The notes beneath the pieces were generated by a model. It did not search any database. It was not told the origin of the DNA and saw only the letters and a program-made list of their open reading frames with translations. This document shows positions 5,954 through 43,845 of a stretch of DNA of 44,993 bases, one piece after another. This stretch comes from Phycisphaerae bacterium. Lineage in GTDB: Bacteria > Planctomycetota > Phycisphaerae > Phycisphaerales > SM1A02. The stretch covers positions 1 through 44,993 of the forward strand of contig VGXL01000008.1 of assembly GCA_016873315.1 (NCBI GenBank), in the 5' to 3' direction. Each line of letters opens with the position of its first letter. Positions within the stretch are counted from its first letter, which is position 1. A program made the position numbers and the translations under genes.

Positions 5954-6994
5954 ATGACCACTGCACTCATCGTTCATGCGCTCGCGGCCTCCGCCATGGG
6001 GCTTCCTCCCGCCAATGACGCGTGCGTGAGCGCAGAACCGATCGCCGGTCTGGGCTCGTTCGCCTTCACGAGCGTGGACGCAACGACCGACGGCCCGCTC
6101 CACGCCCAGTGCAACTTCTTCAGCCAAGCACAGGTCTGGAAGGATGTCTGGTTCTGCTGGACTCCTTCCGTGTCAGGTCTGGTCACTTTCGCGACCTGCG
6201 GGGGTGCGACCTGGGACACCAAGCTCGCCGTCTATGCAGGCTGTGACTGCGCGGCCACCGGAACCTCGATCCTGGCGTGCAGTGACGATGACTGCTTCTC
6301 GCAGTCGCGCGTCACCATCGCCGCAGCAGCTGGCCAGCAGTACTTGGTCCGCATCGGCGGGTACGGAGCGAGCGATGCCAGCGCGGCGAGCGGAACCGGC
6401 ACGCTGACGATCTCTGATGGCGCACTCTTCGAGGTCACGCGCCCCGAGACGGGCAAGCGCTATGTGGCGTATGCAGCGACCACTTGGCAGAGTGCCGAGG
6501 CCACGGCCGTGCAATTGGGCGGGCACCTCGTCTCGATCGACGATGCCCAAGAGAACGAATGGGTGCGTGCCAACATCGCCAACTTCGGTGGTGTGGACCG
6601 CCGTCTTTGGATCGGCTTCAACGATGTTCAGGTCGAGGGACAGTTTGAGTGGACTGATGGCACGCCGCCAAGCTTCACGAATTGGAACCAAGGCGAGCCC
6701 AACAACAGCGGCGGCGCTGAGGACTTCACGGAACTCCTCGGATCGAACGGACAGTGGAATGATCAGGATGCCGATGGCACGGGCCAGCAAATCGGTGTGA
6801 CCGAACTGGACATCGGAGCGCCCGCCTGTGCATCCGACCTCGATGGCGATGGCTCGGTCGGCGGCGGAGACCTGGGCATTCTGCTCACCGCGTGGGGCAC
6901 CGCCGATGCTGCGGCGGACCTTGATGACGATGGCCTGGTCGGCGGCGGAGACCTGGGCATCATGCTGGTCGCTTGGGGTCAGTGCCCACAGTGA
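5954..6994 (+). CDS. Secreted C-type-lectin-domain protein with dockerin-like tail
   Basis: 346 residues; ATG at 5954 is preceded by AGGAG (5944-5948), while the open frame further upstream is antisense to the lipoprotein gene. A short signal peptide leads into a beta-sandwich region resembling bacterial pre-peptidase C-terminal domains (WKDVWFCWTP, then TWDTKLAVYAGCDC). Residues about 165-290 form a C-type lectin fold: WIGFND, EPN in NQGEPNN and WND near the end, the calcium/sugar-binding motifs. The disulfide cysteines of animal lectins are absent. The C-terminus has two EF-hand-like repeats (DLDGDG and DLDDDG, each followed by GGGDLGI), about 27 residues apart. Likely an exported glycan-binding protein; partner unknown. 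Confidence 0.82.
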   Translation: MTTALIVHALAASAMGLPPANDACVSAEPIAGLGSFAFTSVDATTDGPLHAQCNFFSQAQVWKDVWFCWTPSVSGLVTFATCGGATWDTKLAVYAGCDCAATGTSILACSDDDCFSQSRVTIAAAAGQQYLVRIGGYGASDASAASGTGTLTISDGALFEVTRPETGKRYVAYAATTWQSAEATAVQLGGHLVSIDDAQENEWVRANIANFGGVDRRLWIGFNDVQVEGQFEWTDGTPPSFTNWNQGEPNNSGGAEDFTELLGSNGQWNDQDADGTGQQIGVTELDIGAPACASDLDGDGSVGGGDLGILLTAWGTADAAADLDDDGLVGGGDLGIMLVAWGQCPQ

Positions 6995-17449: not shown

Positions 17450-17911
17450 TCAGCCGTCGTAGCCACCACGGCCGCCACCGCCGCTGTAGCCACCGCGACC
17501 GCCGCCGCCACCGTAGCCGCCGCGGCCACCGCCGCCGCCGCCGCCGCCACCGTAGCCACCACGGCCACCGCCGCCGCCGCCGCCGCCACCGTAGCCGCCA
17601 CGGCCACCGCCGCCGCCGCCACCGTAGCCACCACGACCGCCGCCGCCGCCACCACCGCCGCCACCCTGCGCGGGCGGACGAGCTTCGTTCACGGTCAGCG
17701 TGCGACCGTCAAACTGGGTGCCATTGGTTTTTTCGATGGCTTCGTTGCCCTGGGCAGCGTCGCCCATGGTGACGAAACCGAAGCCGCGGCTGCGACCAGT
17801 GTCGCGATCCTTGGCGATGAACACGTCGACGACAGTACCGAACTGCTCGAAGAAAGAGCGCATGTCGTCTTCAGTAGTACCGAACGGCAGATTGCCGATA
17901 TAGAGCTTCAC
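17450..17911 (-). CDS. Glycine-rich RRM RNA-binding protein
   Basis: 153 residues. One RNA recognition motif (1-80) has RNP2 LYIGNL and RNP1 RGFGFVTM with the aromatic residues that stack on RNA. Residues about 83-153 are almost pure Gly with RGGY repeats, an RGG-like tail. The architecture equals that of cyanobacterial Rbp and plant GRP cold-induced RNA chaperones. The start is GTG at 17911, with AAGGA (17919-17923) at proper spacing; a nearby ATG is out of frame. A long leader (about 120 bases) with a stable hairpin precedes it, as often seen for cold-responsive RNA-chaperone genes (inference). It ends at a strong terminator. Confidence 0.93.
   Translation of the reverse strand: MKLYIGNLPFGTTEDDMRSFFEQFGTVVDVFIAKDRDTGRSRGFGFVTMGDAAQGNEAIEKTNGTQFDGRTLTVNEARPPAQGGGGGGGGGGRGGYGGGGGGGRGGYGGGGGGGGGRGGYGGGGGGGGGRGGYGGGGGRGGYSGGGGRGGYDG
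17456..17665 (-). repeat. In-frame GGC/GGT-rich repeat coding Gly-Gly-Arg-Gly-Gly-Tyr units
   Basis: Imperfect direct repeats of roughly 24-39 bases, each encoding GGRGGYGG plus a variable Gly run. Repeat number is likely to vary by slippage. It is coding repeat, not a CRISPR array: there are no unique spacers. Confidence 0.7.
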
Positions 17912-30158: not shown

Positions 30159-31508
30159 ACGCTCTGGCGCGGGCTTGCACCACACCACGCGCGCGGCCGG
30201 CAACGCCGCATGACATTGCGCGAGTGATGCCTTGTGCGGAAGGTCCGTGGGCCACTCGACGATGGAGTCCGGCAAGGCGTGGCGCGGCAGCCGTTCTGCA
30301 AGGGTCGCGATGAGCGCATCCCAGTCCACCGCGCTGCCGTCGGTCCGGACAAACGCGGCCGGGCGCATGCCCCAGTGATCGTTGGGCACACCGATCACGC
30401 GTGCACCCAGCAGCGCGCCGTGATGCAAGAGCTGCGTCTCGAGCTCGACCGGATCGATGTTCTCGCCGCCGGAGATGAACACTCGGTCGCTGCGACCGGT
30501 GACGATCACTGCGCCCTGCTCGAATCGGCCCTGATCACTCGTGCGGAGCCAACCGCCCGCCTCGACGATCGGTTCGATCGTGCCATCCCGCCACGCGCCG
30601 AGCGCCATCGTCGGCGATCGCACGAACAGGTCCGCGCCAAGGCGCTTGGCCACGACGCCATCGAGCCAGCGACCTGACCAACCGTCGGTCGAATCCGGAG
30701 TCGGTCGACCAGCCGCGATCATGGCACCCGTCTCGGTCATGCCGTAGGTCATGACGAGCGGCCAGCCGTTGGCAAGGGCTTGGTTGCGCCAATCGATTGG
30801 GCAGGACGCGCCACCCACGACGAGCGCCTTCATCGCGCGAATCCGCTCATGCAGTGAAGGATCCTGACGAGCCGCATGCAAGAGCCCCGCGAGTTGCGTG
30901 GGCACGATCGAAGCGTGCGTCACCGACGGCGCGCTGAGCAGGAAGGCGTGCAAGGGCACCGATGCATCACCGCGCGTCATGGCCACACGCGCGCCAACGA
31001 GCGCGGCACGCATGAGGATGCCCAGTCCGCCGACATGGTGCCAAGGAATCGTGAGCGCCCAGCAATCATCGGCCGCAAACGAGCACGCCTTCGACGCGCG
31101 CACCGCTGCTTCAACGAGCGTGGCCGCCGAGTGCACGATCAACCTGGATTCGCCGCTCGAACCGCTCGTCGGCACGATGGCTGTGGGGCGCGCCGGATCA
31201 GGGTCAGTGCCGGGCACCGTGCAACTGGGCGCACTCGGCGCGGGCAGACTCACAGCACCCGCTTGCGCGCAGACTGCCGTGCGTCGCGCTTCGGGATCTC
31301 GTGGATTCAGGAGTACCGCGCACGCGCCGCGGCGCACGACCGCGAAGAGCGCGCTGATCGACTCTGCGTCGAGCGATGCTCGCACGCCCACGCGCACGCC
31401 CGCGCCGATGCCCTCGGCCCAAAGCGAATGTTCGTACGCGGCGCGGACACCCTGCCAATGCGGGTCGACGATGCCCCCGGGGCCCATCTGAAACACCATC
31501 ACATCCAT
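30114..31508 (-). CDS. menE: o-Succinylbenzoate--CoA ligase
   Basis: 464 residues of the acyl-adenylating ANL superfamily: P-loop TSGSSGESRLIVHS, TYGMTETG, and the hinge TGRSDRVFISGGENIDPVELE with the C-terminal Lys region HKASL. It activates o-succinylbenzoate with ATP and CoA, the step before MenB. The identity as MenE rests on both the motifs and the surrounding men genes. The start could be ATG 31508 or ATG 31499; the latter makes a TGATG junction with the menC stop, as at the menA/menC junction. It is the last gene of the operon, overlapping the thioesterase gene on plus by 45 bases. Confidence 0.9.
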   Translation of the reverse strand: MDVMVFQMGPGGIVDPHWQGVRAAYEHSLWAEGIGAGVRVGVRASLDAESISALFAVVRRGACAVLLNPRDPEARRTAVCAQAGAVSLPAPSAPSCTVPGTDPDPARPTAIVPTSGSSGESRLIVHSAATLVEAAVRASKACSFAADDCWALTIPWHHVGGLGILMRAALVGARVAMTRGDASVPLHAFLLSAPSVTHASIVPTQLAGLLHAARQDPSLHERIRAMKALVVGGASCPIDWRNQALANGWPLVMTYGMTETGAMIAAGRPTPDSTDGWSGRWLDGVVAKRLGADLFVRSPTMALGAWRDGTIEPIVEAGGWLRTSDQGRFEQGAVIVTGRSDRVFISGGENIDPVELETQLLHHGALLGARVIGVPNDHWGMRPAAFVRTDGSAVDWDALIATLAERLPRHALPDSIVEWPTDLPHKASLAQCHAALPAARVVWCKPAPERSASGESADGVGHGD

Positions 31509-31816
31509 GGAACGACTGCCTCCTTGAGCGGCTGGTACTCGAGTTTGGGGAGAGGGAGCGCAGGAGCGATCTCCATCCGGCCGTCCCGCACGACCGCTTG
31601 CTCCACGACATCGAATTCGAACAGTCCAGCCGACGCCAGACCATGGTCACGACCACCCGTCGCGGTGACCGCTGCGAGCCGCGCAAGGAGCGCGAGCGTG
31701 AAAGACGATTCGAGGCAGCTCGAGAGCACCGTGTCCATGCCATGGATCCGGCCGCGCGTCACCGCGTGTTCGATCTCCTCGAGTGCGCCGAGCAAGCTCG
31801 GCTTGATGACCTGCAC
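31499..31816 (-). pseudogene. menC: menC 3' fragment, displaced frame
   Basis: An open frame encoding the natural C-terminus of o-succinylbenzoate synthase. It begins within the second-transcribed copy of the 50-base duplication (QVIKPSLLGALEEIEHAV...) and ends EAVVPWM just inside the menE start. It continues the upstream menC fragment exactly if one repeat copy is removed, giving a 338-residue protein, the normal MenC length. As written it lacks the barrel's first two thirds and cannot act alone. Translation from the GTG at 31816 is possible but unproven. Confidence 0.75.
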
Positions 31817-32565
31817 CTCGACGCCCGGGGCACCGCGCCGAGCAAGCTCGGCTTGATGACCTGCACCTCGACGCCCGGGGCACCCACGAGCGATTCGCGA
31901 TGCTCTGGCTCGTACAGCGATTCGTCGATGGCCATCGGAATGCCCGTCCGACGGCTGAGTTCCGGAAGCTCAAGCGGATCGCGCAGTGGTTCTTCCATGT
32001 ACTCGATGCGCCCGGCATCGAGCCGCTTCATCATGCGTGCCGCCGAGGTGAGCGTGAGCCGACGATTGCCATCCAAGCGCAGGCGGACTGATGGATCGAG
32101 CCCGTCGAGCATCGCGCGGATCAACGCCGCATCGTCGGCGACCTTGCCCAGCCCGACCTTGACCTTCACGGTTCGGAATCCTGTGAAGTCACCGCGCTCG
32201 ATCGCGACGCTCGCGGCGGCCGCATCGCCGGAAAACACTGCGTTCACGCCGACGCCGCTGTGTTCGCTGCGAGCGAATCCGAAACGGCGATCATGCGTCA
32301 TCGTCGCCTGCGCACAAGAGAGTCCAAATGCGGCGCTCGGCGACATCGGCATCGAGCCGCTGCATGCGGCTTCCTGCACGCCTTCAAGAGCATCCTGCAG
32401 GGTCTCGCGATGCAACCCAGCTAGTGGCGCGATCTCGCCGTAGCCGATCTGACCACCTTCTTCCACGCGAAGGATCGCGCCGCGCCGAACCTGAACCATC
32501 TCCTTGCCCGCCGGAAACGGCGTGCGAAGCGGAAGTTCGTACCAACCAACGCTGTAGGACTTCAT
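31759..32565 (-). pseudogene. menC: o-Succinylbenzoate synthase 5' part, frameshifted by tandem duplication
   Basis: Enolase-superfamily MenC, which dehydrates SHCHC to o-succinylbenzoate. The 268-residue frame keeps every catalytic residue: KxK in TVKVKVG, the metal ligands in RLDGN, YMEEP and IDES, and the second Lys in VIKPS (about residue 238). Directly after that it runs into the second copy of a 50-base repeat and ends in about 25 out-of-frame residues (VPRASRC...), losing roughly 95 C-terminal residues including the last barrel strands. Because the surrounding operon is otherwise intact, either the break is recent or reversible, or it is an assembly error. ATG 32565 overlaps the menA stop as TGATG. 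Confidence 0.85.
31785..31884. repeat. Exact 50-bp tandem duplication inside menC
   Basis: Copies at 31785-31834 and 31835-31884 are identical, each starting gcgccgagcaagctcggctt. Fifty is not a multiple of three, so the second copy shifts the reading frame; removing one copy restores a single 1017-base gene. Confidence 0.95.
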
Positions 32566-33488
32566 CAGGACCGGATCAGGACGACGGCGAAGAGCACCGC
32601 AGTCGCCAGCAGAGCCGATCCCGTAGAGGCTAACACGCCATTCAACGGTCGACCGTCGAGCCCGCGCAACACACGCCAAACTTGCGCGAGAAGGAGCACC
32701 GACGGAACGCATGGCAGATAAGCCATTGGATCCTGCCCTGCGGCGAGCCATGCGAAGCATCCGAGCGCTCCCACGACGCAGGCGGCGAACTCAATTCGCG
32801 CGAAACGCTCGCCCAGACGAACAGCCAGCGTGAGCTTGCGCGCGCGTGCGTCGCCAACTCGATCACGCAAGTTGTTCACCGCCAAGATCGCCGTCGAGAG
32901 CAATCCGCACGCCACACCGGCGATCACCAGTTGCGCATGAAGTTCCGCGCCGAGTGCGAGTCCGGTGGCGACCACGGCCACGATGCCGAAGAAGGCGAGC
33001 ACGAAGAGATCACCCAAGCCGACATAGGCCAGTGGCATCGGTCCGCCGGTGTACGCGAGCGCAAGCGCGGCACTGATCACGCCAAGCACGGCGTAGCCCG
33101 GGCTCACCTCGATCGACAGCCAGGCGGCAGCAAGTCCCGCGACGGCCAGCGCGATGGCCGTCGCGATCCACATCTGCGCTGGGGCGATGATTCCCGCCGC
33201 GACGGCGCGCGTGGGACCGATCCGATCCGGACCGTCGGCGCCCTTGCGAAAGTCATGACATTCGTTGGCGAAGTTGGTGGCCACCTGCACGCTGAGTGCG
33301 CCGATCGCGCACGCCGCGAAGAGCCCCCACTCACGCGCCTGCCATGGTGCGCCTTGCTGCGAGTGGCCAATCGCCGCACCGACCACCACGGGCGCAAGTC
33401 CCGCCGGCAGCGTCTTGGGTCGCATCGCGGCGACCCATGTCATCAGTCCAGCGCGACCCGGCCGTGCGATGTGCGCGGCGTCGCTCAC
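32565..33488 (-). CDS. menA: 1,4-Dihydroxy-2-naphthoate polyprenyltransferase
   Basis: 307 residues, UbiA superfamily with eight or nine helices. The prenyl-diphosphate motif is [18 protein letters not shown], and the second Asp-rich motif is [14 protein letters not shown]. It attaches the isoprenoid tail to DHNA in the membrane, giving demethylmenaquinone. A GTG at 33512 could add eight residues, but GTG 33488 overlaps the menB stop as GTGA, the pattern used elsewhere in this operon, so I prefer it. No menG/ubiE methyltransferase gene is in the window. Confidence 0.92.
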
Positions 33489-40113: not shown

Positions 40114-40133
40114 CGGTGCAAGCCGACGCTCAC
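40114..40133. repeat. Copy 1 of a 20-base intergenic motif
   Basis: It matches 44024-44043 at 19 of 20 bases. It contains CGGT-GCAA-GCCG, a small stem with a GNRA-type loop, and abuts the stop of a minus-strand gene. Function unknown. Confidence 0.5.
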
Positions 40134-41308
40134 TATCGCACGCGGTGCCAGCCGTCCCGATCGATCGAGTGAATGCCGTCCTGTTCGATCCAAAGATGTG
40201 CGATGTGGACCGGCGCACATCGGACCCGGAGCACCTCACGCAGGGTTCGCGACTCGAAGATCACGAGTGAACCATCGACCGTGCCCACGACGAAACGATC
40301 CGCATCGTGAGGGATCGCCGAGGCGGGCACGCTCTGCGTGAATGGCTTCTCCTCCCGTTCGACTTCGCCAGTCGCAGCATTCACGCGCAACACATGTCCC
40401 TCGCGACCCGTGACGATCGCAAAGGAACCATCCGAAGCGATCGAGGACGACTCCAGTTGGCTGATCGGCTTCACCGTCCACCGCACCCGCCCCGAATCCA
40501 GTTCGTGCAGACTCGCGCCACGGCGTCGCGAACCAACCAAGACCGTGTTGGCAGGACCGCAGATCGAGAGGCTTCGGAATCCATGACGCTCCCGCTCATG
40601 AATGCTGTCGCCGACTCCGTCCAGTCGCCAACGCTCCTGCCCTGAAGCAACATCAACACATCGCAACGACGCGTCGTCAAGCGCCACGACGATCGTGGTG
40701 CCGTCATCATCGATCGTGCCACACAGCACCGGGATCCCCTGGGCAATGGTCACATCCTGCGACTCCGGGCCGCGCACGATGCGCACGCTCCCGATGCCGG
40801 CTCGCTCCAGTCTCAGTCCGCTGTGCCGAACATCAAGAGGTGCCAGCCGACGAGCTCCGAACCAGCGATCCACTTCGCTCGCCGCAATCGTGAATGCACC
40901 TGATTGGCTCGAGACACCCATGGCGCCCTCGCGCGAAGCAATGCTCCAGAGTCGTTCCGTGGCCAGTGGCAGTCGCCCGAGTTCCCGACCAGTCGCGATC
41001 GACCAGAGCTCGACCGTGCCATCGCTGCCGACGCTGATGACCCGTTCGTCATCAAGACGAGCGAGCCCCCAGACTGTCCCGCCGTTGCCAGGAACCGACC
41101 ACGATGGTCCGTTGCCGTTGACCGCGACACAGGTGATCCCCCGTCCGCCGACCATCACTCCGTTCCCATCTGCAGTCCACTCAATCGCGAATGTCGCAAA
41201 GCCTGGCTCCCCAACGGGAGTGACCAACCCCGTGGACACATCGACCGTGACCGCACCGCCTTCGCCACCCACAGCAACGACCGAGGGCGCGCTCGGGTGG
41301 GCTGCCAT
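40133..41308 (-). pseudogene. C-terminal repeat domain of the Ser/Thr kinase, displaced frame
   Basis: 391 residues of WD40/PQQ-like beta-propeller repeats, for example GGTVWGLARLDDERVISVGSDGTVELWSIATGRELGRLPL and LDDASLRCVDVASGQERWRL. The open frame has no signal peptide or domain boundary at its ATG and continues upstream into the 56-base duplication. Removing one repeat copy joins it in frame to the upstream kinase (1007 residues in total), the usual planctomycete kinase-propeller architecture. It may be untranslated, or restarted at 41308. Confidence 0.7.
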
Positions 41309-43125
41309 CGAACGGACGAGGCCAACGCCAAGGGGAAGAATGCTGCTCGGTTTCGTGGGCGAGTCACGATTCCAGACCCGGAGTTCGTAGCCCGCGCCGA
41401 CGATCTGCCCATTGCCGAGTTCGGCAGTGATGGCCTGGTCGTACTCAGCGACGGACTGTCGAAGGAGCGGCGGTCCACCACAGTGATGGCCTGGTCGTAC
41501 TCAGCGACGGGCTGTCGAAGGAGCGGCGGTCCACCACCCGTCGCGACATCATGCAGCGTCAAGTCCCCGCGCAGGTTGGCCACGGCGATCGTCAGCGCAT
41601 CTCGCGTCACGCAAAGCGCCCCGACCTCCGTCAGTGGCTGAGGGGTGCACCAGGTCAACGCGCCCCGGTCCCCGCGGACAAGCACATCCAACCCCGTCTT
41701 CCCGATCCCTTCGCCTGTGAAGAGACCGATGCCCGCTTGGGCACCCGGAAGAAGCACCCAGTCCTTGCAGGAGTACGGGAGCACATCGTGCCAACCCAGG
41801 TTGAGCAAACGCCGCGTCACATCAACTTCAAGACACGGATCGCCGTCGAGAAGATCCGTCGCCACAGACTCGATGGCGGATCGATCGGCGTCGGCAACGG
41901 CTCGCGACAGCAACGACAACCGTGCCGCCCGTGTCTGGTCACGCGCGTGCCTGGCCTGCACGACTGCGACCCATGCGATCGACACGAGCGCCGCCATGAT
42001 GGCCACGGTGGTCGCGACCGGCACTCGGTTGCGCCACATCGCTCGCCGCAATCGTTCCAACCGCCCCTGCTCAGACACCAGGACTGGTTCGCCGCGTAGG
42101 TGGCGGCGCAAGTCTTCCGCGAATTGAGCAGCCGTTGGGTATCGGTTGGCCGGATCGTGGGCCGTAGCGCGCTGAATGATGCGCTCGAGCTCCGTCCGTC
42201 GCAGTCCCGTCAGCCCTGAGAGTTGCACGACGACGGGTTGACTGACGACCTGCAACTGCTGCGCGATGCCCGCGCCCGACAATCGTCGCAGCGGTTCATC
42301 GGCGATGAGTTCGTACAGCATCGCGCCAAGCGCGAACAGATCGCAACGGACATCTGGAACACGCGATGGATCGAGCGCCTCTGGCGCGACATAACGCATC
42401 GTGCCTTCGAGCCGCGATCCGAGCAACACTTTGGTCACCGCGGGCGATTGCTCCGACAGGCCTGCGATGCCGAAGTCGATCACGACCGGACGGTCATCCG
42501 CATCCACGAGAATGTTGTCGGGCTTGAGGTCCCGATGAATCACGCCACGGCCGTGCGCATGCTGCACGGCCTCTGCAACCGTAGCGAGTGCGGACACGCG
42601 CTCCTCGAGCGGGCGCGCTCCATTCGTGGCCCACTCCGTGAGTGTGCGCGCTTCGCGCACGAGCTCCATGGCGATCCAGAACCAGCGACGCCCATCGATG
42701 GACGACACATCGGCTCGATAGAGGCGCGCGATGCCAGGGTGCTCCAGTTGCGCGAGCAAGCGTGCCTCGGCTGGGCGCAGCGGACGGTCATCGGCGCGCC
42801 AAACCGCTGGCATCACTTTGAGTGCCACGCTTCGGCCAACACCCCGCTCGACCGCCTCGAACACACGGCCTATGCCACCTTCACCGAGTTGGCGAACGAT
42901 GGTGAACTCGCCCAGCTCAGTGCCAACGCCGAGCCCATCGCTCGTCACGACATCAGAGGGATCCAGAGGTTGCATCGAGTCGTTCAGACCCAGCAGGGCA
43001 AGCGCCTCGGCCACGATGGCTGGAGCGAACCGAGCAAGGGCTTCTGCCTCGCGGTCTTCGCAGAGCAACTCAAAGCAGGCATGGACCTCGCGCAGGCGAG
43101 CTGGGTCGGGCGACTCGCGGTCCAT
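41155..43125 (-). CDS. Membrane Ser/Thr protein kinase, C-terminus frameshifted
   Basis: 656 residues as written. N-terminal 60 residues precede a Hanks-type kinase: GEGGIGRVFE (Gly loop), Lys103 in ALKVM, HRDLKPDN catalytic loop, DFG in VIDFGIAG, and GTMRYVAPEAL. A single membrane helix (about 405-428) is followed by the start of a propeller-like outer domain. From about residue 549 the frame is wrong because of a 56-base tandem duplication, giving about 107 unrelated residues. The kinase itself is intact. The gene diverges from the ECF sigma gene 63 bases away, the known pairing of planctomycete ECF factors with kinases, so it probably controls that sigma factor by phosphorylation (inference). 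ATG 43125 is preferred over an upstream start. Confidence 0.85.
   Translation of the reverse strand: MDRESPDPARLREVHACFELLCEDREAEALARFAPAIVAEALALLGLNDSMQPLDPSDVVTSDGLGVGTELGEFTIVRQLGEGGIGRVFEAVERGVGRSVALKVMPAVWRADDRPLRPAEARLLAQLEHPGIARLYRADVSSIDGRRWFWIAMELVREARTLTEWATNGARPLEERVSALATVAEAVQHAHGRGVIHRDLKPDNILVDADDRPVVIDFGIAGLSEQSPAVTKVLLGSRLEGTMRYVAPEALDPSRVPDVRCDLFALGAMLYELIADEPLRRLSGAGIAQQLQVVSQPVVVQLSGLTGLRRTELERIIQRATAHDPANRYPTAAQFAEDLRRHLRGEPVLVSEQGRLERLRRAMWRNRVPVATTVAIMAALVSIAWVAVVQARHARDQTRAARLSLLSRAVADADRSAIESVATDLLDGDPCLEVDVTRRLLNLGWHDVLPYSCKDWVLLPGAQAGIGLFTGEGIGKTGLDVLVRGDRGALTWCTPQPLTEVGALCVTRDALTIAVANLRGDLTLHDVATGGGPPLLRQPVAEYDQAITVVDRRSFDSPSLSTTRPSLPNSAMGRSSARATNSGSGIVTRPRNRAAFFPLALASSVRWQPTRARPRSLLWVAKAVRSRSMCPRGWSLPLGSQALRHSRLSGLQMGTE
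41425..41536. repeat. 56-bp tandem duplication inside the kinase gene
   Basis: Copies at 41425-41480 and 41481-41536 differ by one base (a at 41455, g at 41511). Fifty-six is not a multiple of three, so the kinase and its propeller are placed in different frames; deleting one copy gives a single 3024-base gene. Confidence 0.95.
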
Positions 43126-43188: not shown

Positions 43189-43845
43189 ATGCCAACGAGC
43201 GAACCGTCCCAACCCGACCTGGCCTTTACGAGCCCTTCCGAACGGGCTCGGATCATTGATGGACTGTTGCAGCGTCGTCAGCGCGGTGATCTGTCAGCTT
43301 TGCGCGAACTGTGGGACCAGATCTACGCCGAGGTGCATCGCATGGCGCGGAGTCGCTTGCGATCGGAAGGTCCGCGCCGTCCGATTGACACGACGGTGCT
43401 GGTGCACGAGCTCTATCTGAAGGCCGGCGATGTCGCGTTCGAGAACCGCGCGCATCTGTTCGGATCACTCGTGCGCATGATGGGCCAGGTGATCATCGAC
43501 TCGGGTCGTCGCGCGCAGCTCGAGCGTCGAACGGGCACCACGGCCAGTGGCGGCGCGATCCAGTTGGATCTCGTGCAGCTCGGCTTCGATCCAGTGGTGA
43601 CACCAGAGTTGAGTGGCGCGATTGTCCAGGCGCTCGACCGGCTCGATGCGTCAACACCCCGTGCGGCCAGCGTGGCTTGGCTGCGCTTCGTCGGTGGATT
43701 GGAGCTCGAGGAGACGGCGACATGCCTTGACATCTCTCGGCGCACCGTCGTCAGCGACTGGAAGTTCGCACGCGCCTGGCTCCGCCGTGAACTCTCGACG
43801 CGGTATCCGGAGCTCAGTCCTGACGGCTCTTCCGGAAACCTCTGA
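43189..43845 (+). CDS. ECF-type RNA polymerase sigma factor (Sigma70_ECF family)
   Basis: 218 residues. Region 2: ALRELWDQIYAEVHRMARSRLRSE and DTTVLVHELYLKAG, the hallmark of the planctomycete/acidobacterial Sigma70_ECF family; then HLFGSLVRMMGQVIIDSGRRAQLERR. Region 4 is helix-turn-helix: FVGGLELEETATCLDISRRTVVSDWKFARAWLRREL. It directs RNA polymerase to a specific regulon. No anti-sigma gene is adjacent; instead the divergent kinase gene suggests control by phosphorylation. ATG 43189 is the only sensible start (an in-frame stop lies just upstream); AAGGAG is present but 15 bases away. Confidence 0.92.
   Translation: MPTSEPSQPDLAFTSPSERARIIDGLLQRRQRGDLSALRELWDQIYAEVHRMARSRLRSEGPRRPIDTTVLVHELYLKAGDVAFENRAHLFGSLVRMMGQVIIDSGRRAQLERRTGTTASGGAIQLDLVQLGFDPVVTPELSGAIVQALDRLDASTPRAASVAWLRFVGGLELEETATCLDISRRTVVSDWKFARAWLRRELSTRYPELSPDGSSGNL

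Follow-up and report, generated by a model that had tools for sequence, protein, structure and literature searches.

A membrane kinase gene split by a tandem duplication

The window analysed here, 44,993 b in length, is a whole contig (G000:C8) of a 2.42-Mb genome that is distributed over 170 contigs and has an estimated completeness of 95.4%. It carries a gene for a Ser/Thr kinase with a propeller domain and a divergent gene for an ECF sigma factor (Table 1). The kinase gene is interrupted by two tandem copies of a 56-base unit, at 41425-41537, where Tandem Repeats Finder and another repeat finder agree on 2.0 copies of 56 b with a 98% match and 0 indels. A near-perfect tandem match of this size is far beyond chance, so a chance origin was discarded. 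The single mismatch between the copies falls at position 31 of the unit and, 56 not being a multiple of three, the minus-strand kinase frame is shifted.

Table 1. Positions of the genes and duplicated units (window coordinates unless a contig is named)
Feature	Position	Strand	Remarks
Copy 1 of the 56-base unit	41425..41480		Propeller side; A at 41455
Copy 2 of the 56-base unit	41481..41536		Kinase side; G at 41511
Kinase frame as written	41155..43125	-	656 aa, ATG 43125 to stop at 41155
Detached propeller part of the kinase gene	40133..41500	-	Other frame; Pfam PQQ_2 and WD40-type propeller matches
ECF sigma factor gene	43189..43845	+	Divergent from the kinase; Pfam PF07638, E 6.8e-32; DTTV replaces DAED
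Second sharp tandem duplication	31785..31884		2 x 50 bases, identical; breaks menC
menC (o-succinylbenzoate synthase)	31505..32760	-	Span holding the broken gene
Third sharp tandem duplication	G000:C1:78325 (= L084:18325-18424; G000 is this genome)		2 x 50 b, one mismatch; 3' end of an htrA-like protease gene

The written kinase frame comprises, in this order, a protein kinase domain (residues 75-283; Pfam Pkinase PF00069, E 1.9e-36) that keeps the ALK, HRDLKPDN, DFG and APE motifs, a hydrophobic helix near residues 370-390, about 120 residues from the start of the propeller, and finally some 110 out-of-frame residues. The rest of the propeller lies in a frame that is open from 41500, has its first ATG at 41308 and ends at 40133. 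When one copy of the unit is removed in silico, the open span grows from 712 to 1034 codons. An earlier note on this DNA had described a kinase-propeller gene split by a 56-bp tandem duplication with one diverged base, its kinase domain and membrane helix surviving and its propeller cut off, and the repeat finders, the frame analysis and the Pfam matches all agree with this description. The note had also foreseen a kinase of 1007 residues after removal of one copy; a single frame is indeed restored, but that length needs a TTG start at 43212, whereas ATG 43125, which aligns with the start codons of four relatives, gives 978 residues, as does the interval 40133-43125.

The proximity of a sigma factor, likewise claimed in the note, is borne out by the PF07638 match and by the conservation of the pair, since the ECF gene (75-81% identity) adjoins the kinase in all four relatives whose sequence reaches that far. 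Canonical ECF sigma factors have DAED where DTTV, a motif with one acidic residue kept, is invariant in five sequences. The kinase/ECF-sigma pair is of a known planctomycete type. In group ECF43, the protein EcfP carries STTA at the DAED site and is activated when the neighbouring kinase PknT phosphorylates the second Thr (PMC8999054). The pairs EcfP-PknT and EcfK-PknS of that group resemble the planctomycete one in the adjacency of the kinase and ECF genes and in the replacement of DAED by a Thr-containing motif; they differ from it in that the planctomycete genes are divergent and the sensor is a propeller. The planctomycete sigma factor would be a candidate ECF43-like protein. Because of the EcfP-PknT precedent, we infer that this kinase may phosphorylate this sigma factor.

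The kinase gene in related genomes

Five relatives of the same genus carry kinase and propeller in one open frame with a single copy of the unit. In three of them (L198, L200 and L201, from relatives G006, G008 and G004) a single frame closed by a stop codon encodes the entire protein of about 975 aa, and in the other two (L199 and G007) the frame continues up to the contig limit. The closest relative, G007, in which kinase and propeller are fused, is 74% identical in both halves, and its single copy aligns to each of the two window copies in turn. The helix and the C-terminal propeller, which belong to the same protein in the five relatives, are divided between two frames of the window sequence as it stands, and the 56-b duplication, absent from the related genomes, is specific to this assembly. 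That kinase and propeller could be naturally separate genes, a possibility for which the earlier note had pointed to a comparison with relatives, is ruled out by the single frame in all five.

Judging from these alignments, the intact gene would encode an ordinary, single and naturally fused membrane Ser/Thr kinase of 978 residues with a propeller sensor. Planctomycete Ser/Thr kinases with a cytoplasmic kinase, a helix and an outside propeller represent an architecture already known in the phylum (PMC11032199). The natural gene has the same N-terminal cytoplasmic-type kinase, one helix and C-terminal propeller; the difference is that in the sequence given here a frameshift severs the propeller, whereas the proteins of the relatives are whole.

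Two other observations came out of these comparisons. Against L198, L200 and L201, which belong to the same genus, identity is 62-69% over the kinase half and only about 32% over the propeller half, G007 being the exception, and this divergence would reflect either a kinase that is combined with two kinds of sensor or rapid evolution of the sensor. The record of L199 (JASGCG010000165.1) is titled Bacteroidia bacterium, with a kinase, a sigma factor and a neighbouring gene 69-83% identical (kinase 69%) to those of this planctomycete, and it is most probably mislabelled or misbinned.

Two further duplications in the same assembly

The same kind of fault occurs at unrelated sites of this assembly, in menC and in an htrA-like gene. 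The menC duplication, whose copies show no mismatch, lies 9.6 kb from that of the kinase, within a menF-D-H-B-A-C-E cluster (38270-30114) in which menF, D, H, B, A and E are all open. The first piece of the broken gene matches NCBIfam TIGR01927 above the cut-off, and five relatives hold one copy of the 50-b unit, with both pieces in one open frame of 435-441 aa; the relative G002 has a TGA elsewhere in its menC match. A search of this genome for a second menC found none, and the gene is therefore single. Planctomycetes rely on menaquinone. The third duplication shifts the last residues of the htrA-like protease, which has one copy of the unit in three relatives; an alignment over the full length of its C-terminal 162 residues is obtained only when one copy is kept.

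The three sharp duplications have units of 50, 50 and 56 b and a microhomology of 0-1 b at their junctions, while the other tandem repeats of the genome with units that are not multiples of three are mostly intergenic and commonly run 4-23 b past the unit. Among the tandem duplications in the 1.81 Mb of this genome that were analysed, these three break genes and were confirmed by comparison with relatives, a count that is a lower bound with about 75% of the genome covered. Across 1.50 Mb of the relatives' DNA, a search for gene-breaking tandem duplications in the range of 40-60 b found none, although the contrast is weak (2.5 duplications expected, P 0.08), and one candidate of 28 b is present in each of this genome and relative G004. 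Other sites were rejected: a 57-b tandem site (G000:C7:36159), whose unit length is divisible by three and whose surroundings are naturally repetitive and vary in relatives too; a 38-b site (G000:C30:4686) upstream of the stretch conserved in relatives; and a 26-b site (L083:11721) between two separate frames. The duplicated units were also inspected for unusual folding and none was seen, which dismisses a hairpin-driven duplication.

The window contains other repeats of a different nature. Two 69-b repeats at 6829-6978, separated by 81 b and with 81% similarity, resemble dockerin-type repeats that bind calcium, and a long imperfect GCC-rich array at 17462-17665, built in multiples of 9 b, probably codes for a glycine-rich stretch.

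Origin and meaning of the duplications

The contigs of this genome look like unscaffolded and unmerged primary de Bruijn contigs with a largest word of 127, because 13 of the 16 exact end-to-end overlaps at the contig ends examined measure 127 b and no runs of Ns were found in the 1.5 Mb searched for them. These 13 pairs of ends would allow a tentative joining of several contigs. The four nearest named relatives are metagenome-assembled genomes. A junction that lacks microhomology contains words that are not derivable from single-copy reads; therefore, at least one read (from a true molecule, a chimera or a fused read pair) or a gap-closing step supplied it. This argument works in two directions, since a mere stutter of the graph is excluded by it while a real duplication stays conceivable. 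A loop of the de Bruijn graph on a shared word is rejected in view of the 0-1 b of microhomology, and a scaffolding error with Ns, or the merging of overlaps, is not supported, given the absence of N runs and the unmerged 127-b ends.

The reading that we favour, and that we regard as probable but far from secure, is that the 56-b duplication is an error in the consensus of a metagenome-type assembly, an artefact of assembly or reads and not a feature of the organism. An artefact is more likely than biology because the same assembly has two similar duplications by which other, unrelated conserved genes are broken. The single copy and single open frame of the relatives, where the menC and htrA-like units are single as well, would also fit an error, and the three units of 50-56 b with hardly any junction homology are unlike the genome's other repeats of this class. 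As for the route, where coverage was low a single faulty molecule or read, for instance a chimera or a fused read pair whose overlap had not been removed, or else a gap-closing step, could have linked two sequence ends, both of which contained the 56 bases beforehand. If these ends came from cells or reads differing at one base, the single mismatch would follow, and the same process could have produced the duplicated 50 bases of menC and of the htrA-like gene. Metagenome assemblies are described as containing errors in which an overlap goes unrecognised and its sequence remains in duplicate, with Ns between the copies (Chen et al. 2020, PMC7111523). The present case shares with that class a short stretch written twice in tandem where the genome should hold one, with genes broken, but it has no Ns between the copies and we do not claim that subtype for it; the class is defined by missing read support, and the likeness drawn here is one of the consensus sequence.

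The earlier note took the one diverged base as an argument against an assembly fault. This argument is weak, given that the same picture would result from two alleles of a population or from an error in an overlapping read, and that the copies breaking menC are identical. The residue affected (Pro or Ser) occupies a position that is variable between relatives.

A real duplication of the 56 bases is the less probable alternative, still credible because a plain de Bruijn contig can include the junction only if one or more reads span it; the absence of Ns and the weak contrast with the relatives also speak against an error. In its most ordinary form, which we judge somewhat unlikely, most of the sampled cells would carry a tandem duplication whose frameshift inactivated the propeller part, one copy being substituted later, as a common loss of function. 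The junction reads that a de Bruijn contig without microhomology requires and the one-base difference between the copies both favour it, and spontaneous short tandem duplications within bacterial genes are known (Waite et al., as cited in PMC4022640). This account needs, however, three independent gene-breaking events of near-equal size, one of them killing the sole menC, and the loss of menC alone amid an otherwise open operon counts against a duplication carried by the majority of cells. So does the narrow size range of 50-56 b, a pattern noticed afterwards, and an additional but weak objection is that the propeller frame has no additional stop even though one mismatch per 56 b implies some age.

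Tandem duplications could also be functional. In pneumococcus, spontaneous ones control capsule genes and thereby their phase variation, according to Waite et al. (2001, 2003; cited in PMC4022640), and three genes of this genome carry comparable duplications, so one could imagine a reversible switch in which slippage gains or loses the unit and part of the population always lacks the sensor domain. The pneumococcal cases share with ours a short in-gene tandem duplication that shifts the frame and that the loss of one copy could undo; here, in contrast, only one form is visible in the consensus, one copy has diverged and no relative holds the duplicated form. We consider such a switch very improbable and do not class the duplication as phase variation, which would require that both forms coexist and interconvert. 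The least probable reading is a selected truncation, in which a constitutively active kinase without its propeller drives the adjoining ECF sigma factor. The kinase motifs and the membrane helix are intact, and the DTTV of the sigma factor recalls the STTA of the phospho-activated ECF43 (PMC8999054), but the idea requires both an inhibitory propeller and a real duplication. It is the deregulated kinase suggested in the earlier note, and it is unsupported; the written product would retain the kinase and the helix, followed by about 120 residues of propeller and about 110 out-of-frame residues, and its stability and constitutive activity would be assumptions. Equally hard to credit is the broader proposal that real, homology-free tandem duplications of some 50 bases arise within genes of this lineage unusually often, and that they are used or tolerated there to turn off, reversibly, a sensor kinase, the synthesis of menaquinone and a protease of the envelope.

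If reads were to support the duplications, an unusual mutation process would be indicated. Taken at face value, the record suggests an organism with a split kinase, a deficiency in menaquinone and an altered protease; the pattern common to the three sites, sharp duplications of 50-56 b that lack junction homology and that relatives do not share, is a reason not to annotate these genes as pseudogenes and not to infer the metabolism of the organism from this genome.
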